Part shown: piece by piece, positions 21,645-24,740 of the stretch
Layout: each line of letters opens with the position of its first letter
Position numbering within the stretch: position 1 is the first letter of the stretch
Source: Arcobacteraceae bacterium
Lineage (GTDB): Bacteria > Campylobacterota > Campylobacteria > Campylobacterales > Arcobacteraceae
Assembly: GCA_029934475.1 (NCBI GenBank)
Contig: JAOZMC010000012.1
Span: 1-37,926 of the forward strand
Length of the DNA: 37,926 nucleotides
Reading direction: 5' to 3'
Program-made: the position numbers and the translations under genes
Notes under the pieces: generated by a model
The model's input: the letters and a program-made list of their open reading frames with translations, nothing else
Told to the model about the DNA's origin: nothing
The model's database searches: none

Positions 21645-22562
21645 ATGAAAAACGACAACATAGAGACGATAAAAGCAAAGAAAAACGAAGCTTTCAACTG
21701 GAAAAATATCCGACCCATATATGAAGCGGTGCAAAAGGTCAAGAAGCTCAACATAGCAGATATAAAAGTATCTCTAGGCGACACAGTCCAGATACAAACA
21801 ACACAAGATATATCTACACAAGACAAACAAACTATCCAAAAAGCCCTAGCTCTGCTGATACCGTGGCGGAAAGGTCCGTTTGAGATATTTGATATAGATA
21901 TCCAGACAGAGTGGCGAAGCTATATCAAATACGATATACTAAGACCACACTTTGACCTTAAAGATAAAGTTGTAGCAGATATAGGGTGCAACAACGGCTA
22001 CTATATGTTCAAGATGACCAGCGACAAACCTCGCAAACTCGTAGGATTTGACCCATCGGCTTTGTGCAAACTCCAGTTTGATATGATGAACCACTTTATC
22101 AAAAGTGACATAAAATTTGAGCTACTAGGAGTAGAACATCTACAAGCCTACAACCACAAGTTTGATATGATATTTATGCTAGGAGTTTTGTATCATAGAG
22201 CTGACCCTATAGGCACACTAAAACAACTGAAAAACGCTCTGCTTCCACGAGGCGAAGTCATATTGGATACATTTATCATAGATGGCGACGGCGATATGTG
22301 CCTGACACCACAGAGCAGATATGCTATGATACCAAATATATATTTTGTTCCTACCGTTAAAGCTTTGACCAACTGGCTAGGTCGTGCTGGATTTATAGAT
22401 ATACAGGTGCTAAATATCTCACAGACAACTACACATGAGCAGCGAACAACCAAGTGGACTTTTGATCAAAGTTTGGCAAACTTCCTAGACCCCCACGACC
22501 ACAACCGCACAATAGAGGGCTATCCTGCTCCAAAGAGAGCTTATATCAAGGCTAGAGTGTGA
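21645..22562 (+). CDS. cmoB: tRNA U34 carboxymethyltransferase
   Basis: 305 residues from ATG 21645. A TTG at 21603 in frame is rejected because the family N-terminus aligns from about here. CmoB uses carboxy-SAM made by CmoA to form 5-carboxymethoxyuridine at tRNA wobble U34. WRKGPF (74-79), TEWRSYIKYDIL, the SAM site VADIGCNNGYYMFKM (about 110-124), FMLGVLYHRADP, PNIYFVPTV and EGYPAPKRAYIKARV are family hallmarks. It lies 86 bases after znuB. A possible weak promoter (TATTAT near 21570) lies in the gap. CmoA is not in the window. Confidence 0.94.
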   Translation: MKNDNIETIKAKKNEAFNWKNIRPIYEAVQKVKKLNIADIKVSLGDTVQIQTTQDISTQDKQTIQKALALLIPWRKGPFEIFDIDIQTEWRSYIKYDILRPHFDLKDKVVADIGCNNGYYMFKMTSDKPRKLVGFDPSALCKLQFDMMNHFIKSDIKFELLGVEHLQAYNHKFDMIFMLGVLYHRADPIGTLKQLKNALLPRGEVILDTFIIDGDGDMCLTPQSRYAMIPNIYFVPTVKALTNWLGRAGFIDIQVLNISQTTTHEQRTTKWTFDQSLANFLDPHDHNRTIEGYPAPKRAYIKARV

Positions 22563-22617
22563 AAGTTAAGTTTTTTGTGGTATTATCGTGGCTATTAGGA
22601 GCTTGTCATGATGGTAT

Positions 22618-22749
22618 TTATGACAGTGAAGCATGTCTCTTGTAGTGTTGTCCTAGATATGCCATCAAAGACAAATCTATAGCTATGGTTATGGCAAATA
22701 TCACTTTGAGCCAACCTGTTTCTTCTTTTGCCTTGTCTAGTTGTGGCAT
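22618..22749 (-). CDS. Small single-TM protein, apparently truncated
   Basis: 43 codons beginning MPQLDKAKEETGWLKVIF, then a hydrophobic helix ITIAIDLSLMAYL and the tail GQHYKRHASLS. The start (acidic/basic helix, then GWLKV and a membrane helix) resembles a family of small proteins of about 65-75 residues with two membrane helices that I recall from many bacteria. Here the second helix is missing. In the +1 frame just past the stop, CHKYHHDKLLIATII is encoded up to a stop at 22566-22568, so a frameshift or deletion is possible. A good -10 box lies 17 bases upstream; the ribosome binding site is weak (AAAG). Function unknown. Confidence 0.55.
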   Translation of the reverse strand: MPQLDKAKEETGWLKVIFAITIAIDLSLMAYLGQHYKRHASLS

Positions 22750-22766
22750 ATATTTTCTTTGGTATT

Positions 22767-22772
22767 ATTGTA
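22767..22772 (-). promoter_or_regulatory. -10 box of the small membrane protein gene
   Basis: Minus-strand TACAAT in GGATACAAT, preceded by TTAAGTT 8 bases upstream of the hexamer. It shares this upstream box and spacing with the nuoK and ilvB promoters, which supports real transcription of the 43-codon gene. Confidence 0.55.
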
Positions 22773-22810
22773 TCCAAATAAACTTAAACAAACCAAGAAA
22801 TATAAAATAT

Positions 22811-22830
22811 ACCTCGCTCCCAAGCTGGAG
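22811..22830. repeat. Decayed REP-like sequence
   Basis: Read on the minus strand it gives CTCCAGCTTGGGAGCGAGGT. This shares TTGGGAnCGAGGT with the right half of the perfect hairpin at 25-46. The pairing arm is lost. It looks like a solitary, degraded member of the same or a related repeat family. Confidence 0.35.
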
Positions 22831-22871
22831 AGGATGTGTGCTTAATATTTGTGTTGCTTTTTATAGAAAGT

Positions 22872-22886
22872 TTGGACTTTGTCCAA
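22872..22886 (-). terminator. Weak hairpin after typA
   Basis: TTGGAC-TTT-GTCCAA, a 6-bp stem with a 3-base loop, 40-54 bases past the typA stop. On the minus strand it is followed by ACTTTCTATAAAA, a poor T-tract. It is a possible but weak terminator. Confidence 0.25.
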
Positions 22887-22925
22887 TCACCACGGCTACT
22901 TTTGCCAAAACTTCAGACCTCTACC

Positions 22926-24740
22926 CTAAGCATTTTTGACTTTTTTGGCTTCTCGTTTTCTCATACTGGCATTTAGCTCTTTTTTTCGTATTCTTATAGT
23001 TTTGGGTGTTATCTCCACTAGCTCATCGTCCTCTATCCACTCCAGTGCCAACTCAAGGTTCATGATCTTCGCTGGTATCAGCTTGATAGCCTCGTCTGCT
23101 CCGCTACTTCTCACATTTGACTGCTGTTTGGCTTTGACTGGGTTTACATCTAGGTCATTTTCTCTGGAGTGTTCGCCTACTATCATACCGCTGTATACTT
23201 TCTCTTGTGGTCCTATAAACATAGCTCCTCTGTCTTGTAGGTTAAAGATAGAATAAGCTACCGCTTCACCTTGTTCCATAGAGACTAAAGCTCCGTTTTT
23301 ACGACTTACTACCATACCGCTATATGCTCTAAACTCCAAAAATGAGTGGTTCATCACTCCCTCGCCTTTGGTATCGGTCAAAAATTCGTTTCTATATCCT
23401 ATAAGCCCTCGTGCTGGTATCTCAAACTCTACTCTGGTTTGACCGTTGCCCATGGGTATCATATTTGACATTACTGCTTTTCGTTTGCCCAAAGTCTCTA
23501 TCACTTGTCCGCTAAACTCATCTGGTATATCACATACAAGATGTTCAAACGGCTCCATACGGACACCATCTACCTCCTTGGTGATAACTTCTGGTCTAGA
23601 TATGCTAAACTCATACCCCTCTCGTCTCATATTTTCTGCCAATATAGTGATCTGTAGTTCGCCTCTGCCACTTACTTCAAATGCCGAGTCGCCCTTTGGT
23701 TCGCAGTTCATAGCTATATTTGTAGTCATCTCAGCTTCTAGCCTCTCTTGGAGTTTGTTGCTAGTGACATATTTGCCCTCTGTGCCACTAAGTGGTGAGT
23801 TATTGACCGCAAAGGTTACACTCAAAGTAGGCTCCTCTATGTGCATAGGGTCTAGTGGCATAGGATTGCTTATATCACACAAACTATCACCCACGTCTAT
23901 AGTCTCAAACCCTGCTACTGCTACTATATCGCCGTGTCCTGCTTCTTTTATATCTAGTTTTTCAAGACCTTTAAATCCTATAAGCTTGGACACTCTGCCT
24001 TTGAGTTGTTCGCCATCTGCTTTGACTAGCAGGACTGTTTCGTTTAGCTTTATGGTGCCGTTAAATATCCTAGCTATACCTATCTTGCCTATGAAATTGT
24101 CATAGCCTAGTGTAAATACTTGTAGCTGTAGTCCGTTGTCATCGCTACCGCTAGGAGCTGGCACCTCTTCTAGTATCATATCAAGTAGTGGTATCATATC
24201 TTTGTTTTCATCCTCTAGGTTGATTTTCGCATAGCCGTTTTTCGCAGCCGCATATATGACTGGAAACTCAAGTTGGTTTTCATCTGCTCCCATCTGGTCA
24301 AACAGGTCAAACACTTCATCTACTACTTTATCTGGCTGTGCCGCATCTTTGTCTATCTTGTTTACTACTACTATAGGTCTGTGTCCTAGTTGCAAAGCCT
24401 TTTTGACTACAAACTTGGTCTGTGGCATGACTCCCTCTTGGGCATCTACTAGCAACAACACAGAGTCAACCATCTTCAAAACTCTCTCCACCTCACCACC
24501 AAAGTCAGCATGTCCGGGTGTGTCTATGATATTTATTCGTGTCTGCTTATAGTCTATAGCTGTATTTTTGGCAAGTATAGTGATGCCTCGCTCCTTTTCT
24601 ATATCGTTGCTATCCATCATCCGCTCTTCTAGTTCTTCTCGCTCACCAAAAGTGCCTGACTGCTTGAGTAGCTCATCTACCAAAGTTGTCTTGCCGTGGT
24701 CTACATGTGCTATGACTGCTATGTTTCGTATATCTCTCAT
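22926..24740 (-). CDS. typA: Ribosome-associated GTPase TypA/BipA
   Basis: 604 residues. It is an EF-G-like translational GTPase implicated in ribosome assembly and stress or cold adaptation. G1 AHVDHGKTT is at 11-19, with [13 protein letters not shown] and NKIDK as the further G motifs. The C-terminal half shows [19 protein letters not shown] and the TypA-specific tail with [17 protein letters not shown]. Length is as expected. It has its own promoter with a leader of about 27 bases and AAGGA before the ATG, so it is probably monocistronic. Confidence 0.97.

Follow-up and report, generated by a model that had tools for sequence, protein, structure and literature searches.

In their general description, REP-type palindromic repeats are dispersed, intergenic, hairpin-forming units. 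One side of the locus described here resembles this class, while its coding part resembles an unnamed pair of small membrane-protein genes, the first encoding two helices and the second encoding one. This two-helix/one-helix pair is without a curated family in searches of Pfam, NCBIfam, PHROGs and PADLOC, and nothing resembling it appeared in the titles and abstract openings covered by a literature search.

We analyzed a window of 37,926 nucleotides (contig JAOZMC010000012.1 of an Arcobacteraceae bacterium), in which a short open reading frame (ORF) lies between the converging genes cmoB and typA. We consider it likely that this ORF is a decaying, internally deleted remnant of the unnamed operon, in which the two-helix gene is closely coupled to the one-helix gene. 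The locus comprises the following features:

Ending at 22562, plus strand: cmoB
22563-22925: cmoB-typA intergenic gap, 363 bp
22559-22586, plus strand: promoter-like site from a simple sigma70 scan
22566..22620, plus strand: remnant of the start of a gene for a 77-aa membrane protein (MMVF gene), with promoter region, ribosome site and first codons
22597-22601, plus strand: ribosome site AGGAG of the MMVF remnant
From 22608, plus strand: first codons ATGATGGTATTT of the MMVF remnant
22621..22638: putative join between the two gene fragments, placed where both alignments stop
22749..22618, minus strand: 43-codon ORF, sequence MPQLDKAKEETGWLKVIFAITIAIDLSLMAYLGQHYKRHASLS; codons 1 to ~37 are the family front half (helix 1), the last few codons an unrelated tail
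22767..22787, minus strand: promoter-like TTAAGTT ... TTTGGATACAAT, ending 17 nt before the ATG of the ORF
22787-22781, minus strand: TTAAGTT, upstream of the ORF
22778-22767: TTTGGATACAAT, upstream of the ORF
22774-22767, minus strand: GATACAAT, upstream of the ORF
22812..22921, typA side of the gap: REP-like dispersed repeats, a GCTCCCAAGC... segment plus a 41-42-bp hairpin unit
22872..22886, minus strand: hairpin TTGGACAAAGTCCAA after typA, a weak terminator-like site inside the repeat (1 versus 0.6 in shuffles)
22926-24740, minus strand: typA

The initial annotation had described a 43-codon gene in the cmoB-typA gap with one clear membrane helix, preceded by TTAAGTT and a second motif, and each of these points held on the minus strand. 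The ORF has a single hydrophobic stretch, whose best 19-residue mean hydropathy is 1.96, starting at residue 14, and both motifs lie ahead of it on its own strand. The motif TTTGGATACAAT occurs exactly 15 times across the 1.52-Mb genome, compared to 3 times for a reversed control pattern; within the window, TTTNGATACAAT with at most one mismatch gave 7 matches where 1.7 were expected, and one of the 7 lies 32 nt ahead of the typA ATG. A simple sigma70 scan of positions 22400-23100 (2 sites versus 1.4 expected, both elsewhere) did not list the promoter of the ORF. The upstream motif is probably a real promoter. The ribosome site appears weak by eye (CCAAAGAAAATAT). The window contained no tRNA or tmRNA, and an Rfam search of 22400-23100 gave a single chance-level match (E 1.9).

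The front half of the ORF had been likened to a family of two-helix small proteins, and the searches bear this out. Among 60 related genomes, the 43-residue query found a match at E ≤ 10 in 7, source genome included, the best ones beyond the source genome having E-values of 4.5e-10 and 1.7e-9. A scan with a small alignment over one genome per GTDB species returned 109 relatives, and we kept the 80 best. Of these best 80, 69 encode 70 to 80 residues, and 11 (L053, L056, L057, L061, L072, L078, L085, L086, L090, L101 and L103) are truncated, shifted or otherwise altered, a fraction that is not an unbiased rate, because the scan requires a conserved N terminus. Frameshifted copies with a recognisable second half were seen at L078, L085, L086 and L103, as well as on contig C22 of the source genome (G000) and on contig C9 of the congener G002. 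In intact relatives, the C-terminal part consists of a strongly hydrophobic second helix and a charged ...L(E/K)DL-like tail. For an alignment of 30 members, AlphaFold2 predicted a hairpin of two long helices (residues 3-35 and 41-74) with a mean pLDDT of 95; comparing this model with PDB folds gave 303 matches at E ≤ 10 and none at E ≤ 0.001.

The intact two-helix protein, about 75 aa long, is encoded directly upstream of a one-helix partner ORF of about 30 aa. Defining a partner as an ORF of 22-50 codons that has a hydrophobic stretch and an ATG between -8 and +60 bases relative to the stop, we found one at 67 of 68 intact copies, versus 24 of 1188 random control places in the same loci (68 rather than 69 copies were tested because one sequence ended too early). 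The sole miss, L081, has a similar ORF with a GTG start. At 46 of the 67, the partner ATG begins at the last base of the two-helix stop codon, an overlap that would fit translational coupling. The nearest upstream ORF runs in the same direction in 63 of the 77 loci having one, as it does for the window copy, but these loci are not independent, since many Poribacteria loci share neighbours.

Of 398 genomes sampled across the order, 75 (source genome included) had matches at E ≤ 0.001, with 11 in G093 and 8 in G289, although chance may account for a few of the weakest, which sit in long frames, and a single copy can yield two matches. Relatives were also found in records titled Thiosymbion, Poribacteria, Nitrosomonas and others, the taxon being taken from the title of the metagenome-assembled genome. 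In 11 of the 80 loci, the fetched flanks held an additional, often divergent family member (E ≤ 0.001), which indicates that these genes tend to cluster. One such island (L079 1-5845; DZAX01000031.1) carries at least 4 family members and other small two-helix/one-helix-like pairs, along with two types of palindromic repeat, GGTGTCAGGCACTC (20 placements, some of which overlap) and GGGGTCAGACCCC (6 placements).

Database searches with individual proteins were largely blank. The window ORF had no match in Pfam or NCBIfam and one at E 0.22 in PHROGs; the submitted relatives, the partner and the MMVF protein gave Pfam and NCBIfam matches below curated cut-offs only and weak PHROGs matches only, and PADLOC returned nothing for six proteins, among them neither the partner nor the window ORF. 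An origin from a phage or plasmid was considered and found no support: one Poribacteria relative, used as the query, had no match in phage records and 1 partial match in plasmid records, and of 11 IMG/VR stretches that fit the pattern, none was confirmed, confirmation being made with the short window ORF.

To establish what the window copy retains, we ran profiles built from the 69 intact two-helix proteins and, by a looser rule of choice, from 72 partner ORFs against the six-frame open stretches of at least 10 residues in the window. The N-half profile matched the ORF at E 9.7e-18, and the match ended at about codon 37, which corresponds to the hairpin turn. The C-half profile had no match up to E 10 on the minus strand of the gap; its sole reported segment in the gap lay on the plus strand (22710-22778, E 1.2). 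The partner profile had no match in the gap up to E 10. Compared to intact pairs (e.g., JAEMQC010000087.1 in L024 and QMKX01000001.1 in L096), the window copy thus has the helix-1 sequence in common, including the D5/K8/E9/G12/L14/K15 pattern, whereas it lacks helix 2, the C-terminal tail and the partner gene. At residue 11 the ORF has Thr instead of the Ile seen in 68 of the 69 intact relatives. Among its first 37 residues, 8 are rare ones with a family frequency below 5% (family median 2), although 13 of the 69 intact members carry 8 or more. The Thr11 and the rare residues argue against a function of the window ORF. Of the description "truncated or frameshifted", the truncation stands and the frameshift does not, as the back half is absent from the gap; put differently, homologues exist for the front half and none was found for the proposed back half.

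The DNA that had been read as the back half in the next frame (CHKYHHDKLLIATII) turned out to have a different identity, namely the antisense of the promoter region and first codons of a gene on the opposite strand. Positions 22566-22620 align with G000:C22:11149-11202 at 50 of 55 identical bases (91%, one gap; E 2.5e-14), and on C22 the matching DNA covers the start of an open 77-aa frame, MMVFTTMFVSV..., from its promoter region through the ribosome site into the first codons. The MMVF protein had a match at E ≤ 1 in 17 of 100 related genomes, source genome included, the best one outside the source genome (E 0.004) having internal stops. The stretch 22563-22625 also folds better than most shuffled versions (z -2.95; 2 of 200 shuffles as good), but a regulatory RNA hairpin was rejected here, because a gene start shared with C22 explains the segment better.

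On C22, the MMVF frame lies just beyond, and convergent to, a broken copy of the two-helix family and its partner. This two-helix gene is frameshifted (N half E 8.5e-4, C half E 6.9e-8), the one-helix partner is recognisable (E 5.9e-5), and the partner and MMVF frames are open; an earlier reading of this copy as a 3' half only proved wrong, since the 5' part is present in other frames. Directly upstream of the frameshifted gene (L107 1814-2462) lie fragments that we take to be similar to a broken IS3-type transposase. In both the C22 island and the window, what is left of a two-helix gene thus adjoins the start of an MMVF gene, with the two oriented alike, whereas the C22 copy is frameshifted instead of cut, belongs to a different subfamily, and keeps open partner and MMVF frames. 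The C22 layout may not be ancestral, given the difference in subfamily and the fact that the related copy on C9 of G002, itself frameshifted, has no adjoining MMVF gene.

Absence of the frame from close relatives, which the initial annotation had named as counting against the gene, is what we observed: an orthologous copy was found in none of the three congeners G001, G002 and G003 (drafts, 94-99% complete), in all of which cmoB and typA lie on different contigs. At E ≤ 0.001, with congener matches above E 0.01 not counted as copies, the source genome has two family copies, both broken, G002 has one intact and one broken, and G001 and G003 have none; a weak match on C7 of G001 (E 0.004) was discarded, as the open frame that starts there is longer and different. 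Also in G001, a 37-base stretch resembling the typA tail (33 of 37 identical) starts 1 base after the cmoB stop, and the order is again convergent, although the match is weak as protein (14 residues, E 0.16). It suggests that the two genes formerly met at their 3' ends, with none of what now fills the gap. An intact cmoB-typA adjacency in G001 with a gap of 7 bp (a distance counted from where the cmoB alignment ends) was considered and is wrong: the 14-codon typA 3'-end-like stretch lies beside cmoB on C58 (L013 2505-2546), and the complete typA lies on C20.

The typA side of the gap (22812-22921) is filled by repeats with many partial copies in the source genome and further ones in G001 and G002; in G001, typA is followed by several related repeat units up to the contig end. 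Being dispersed, intergenic and hairpin-forming palindromic units, they are like the REP-type class as generally described, and we regard them as candidate members. The ~42-bp unit has constant ends and a central hairpin stem that varies between units while staying largely self-complementary, with copies at 22859-22921 of the window, on contigs C3, C14, C32, C33, C56, C63 and C65 of G000, and at L168 1-300.

With its back half and partner gene gone, the window ORF is most likely genetic debris. As the window fragments share the order and orientation of C22, we suggest that about 0.4 kb was deleted from within an island of similar layout, in which the two-helix gene would have been followed by the one-helix gene and then by the convergent MMVF gene. 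Such a deletion would have fused the two-helix gene, at around codon 37, with the MMVF gene, at around codon 5-10, and the repeat-rich cmoB-typA junction may have been rearranged in the source lineage. The ORF is probably still transcribed and would yield a one-helix peptide of 43 residues that has no conserved role, while the plus-strand promoter of the MMVF remnant, together with read-through from cmoB, could produce RNA antisense to it. Broken or altered copies are common in general, as seen at 11 of the 80 loci, for both copies in the source genome and for one of two in G002. Two observations can be set against decay: the frame of helix 1 is undamaged with promoter-like sequence in place, which would not necessarily be expected of an old pseudogene; and the cut falls just after helix 1 as modeled for an intact relative (3-35), a position that a working one-helix protein would require.

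These same observations (the open frame, the promoter-like sequence and a cut near the hairpin turn) favor a functional one-helix derivative, a peptide that would be made, inserted into the membrane, and act alone or bind full-length relatives or other membrane proteins. A natural deletion form of this kind exists at L101 (JAMOQV010000224.1), a 42-aa, one-helix version close in length to the window copy, in which helix 2 is missing in frame. L101, however, retains both the conserved tail at its C terminus and a partner ORF downstream, and the window copy has neither; furthermore, the source genome yielded no full-length relative, its only other copy (E ≤ 0.001) being frameshifted, and the congeners lack an orthologous copy. 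We therefore regard a functional derivative as unlikely, and as less likely than the decaying remnant.

An assembly artefact, with the contig misjoined at the repeat beside typA, seems very improbable. Copies of the repeat do sit at or near the ends of contigs C3, C14, C55, C56, C63 and C65 of this draft, and typA and cmoB are on separate contigs in all three congeners, but the typA-tail-like bases beside cmoB in G001 point to a former adjacency, weak as they are as protein, and even if the contig were misjoined at the repeat, cmoB would still have the truncated ORF and the MMVF fragment beside it. A frameshifted but otherwise complete gene has next to no chance of being correct and was dropped: the family does include frameshifted copies with a recognisable second half, but here the C-half profile is blank on the minus strand of the gap and the MMVF gene start explains most of the DNA.

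A broader idea, which we hold to be very doubtful, is that the intact copies represent an undescribed operon of two tiny coupled membrane proteins that spreads horizontally and acts as a selfish or conflict module, with the window copy being a naturally evolved one-helix form that interferes with later-acquired full-length relatives. If true, copies of the module would be constantly gained and broken, sometimes clustering as divergent paralogues among palindromic repeats. The broken copies themselves suggest a fast turnover of the family. Overall, the widespread, unnamed family, with its near-constant gene pairing (67 of 68), is of more interest than the window ORF, and small coupled gene pairs such as these are easily missed by annotation.
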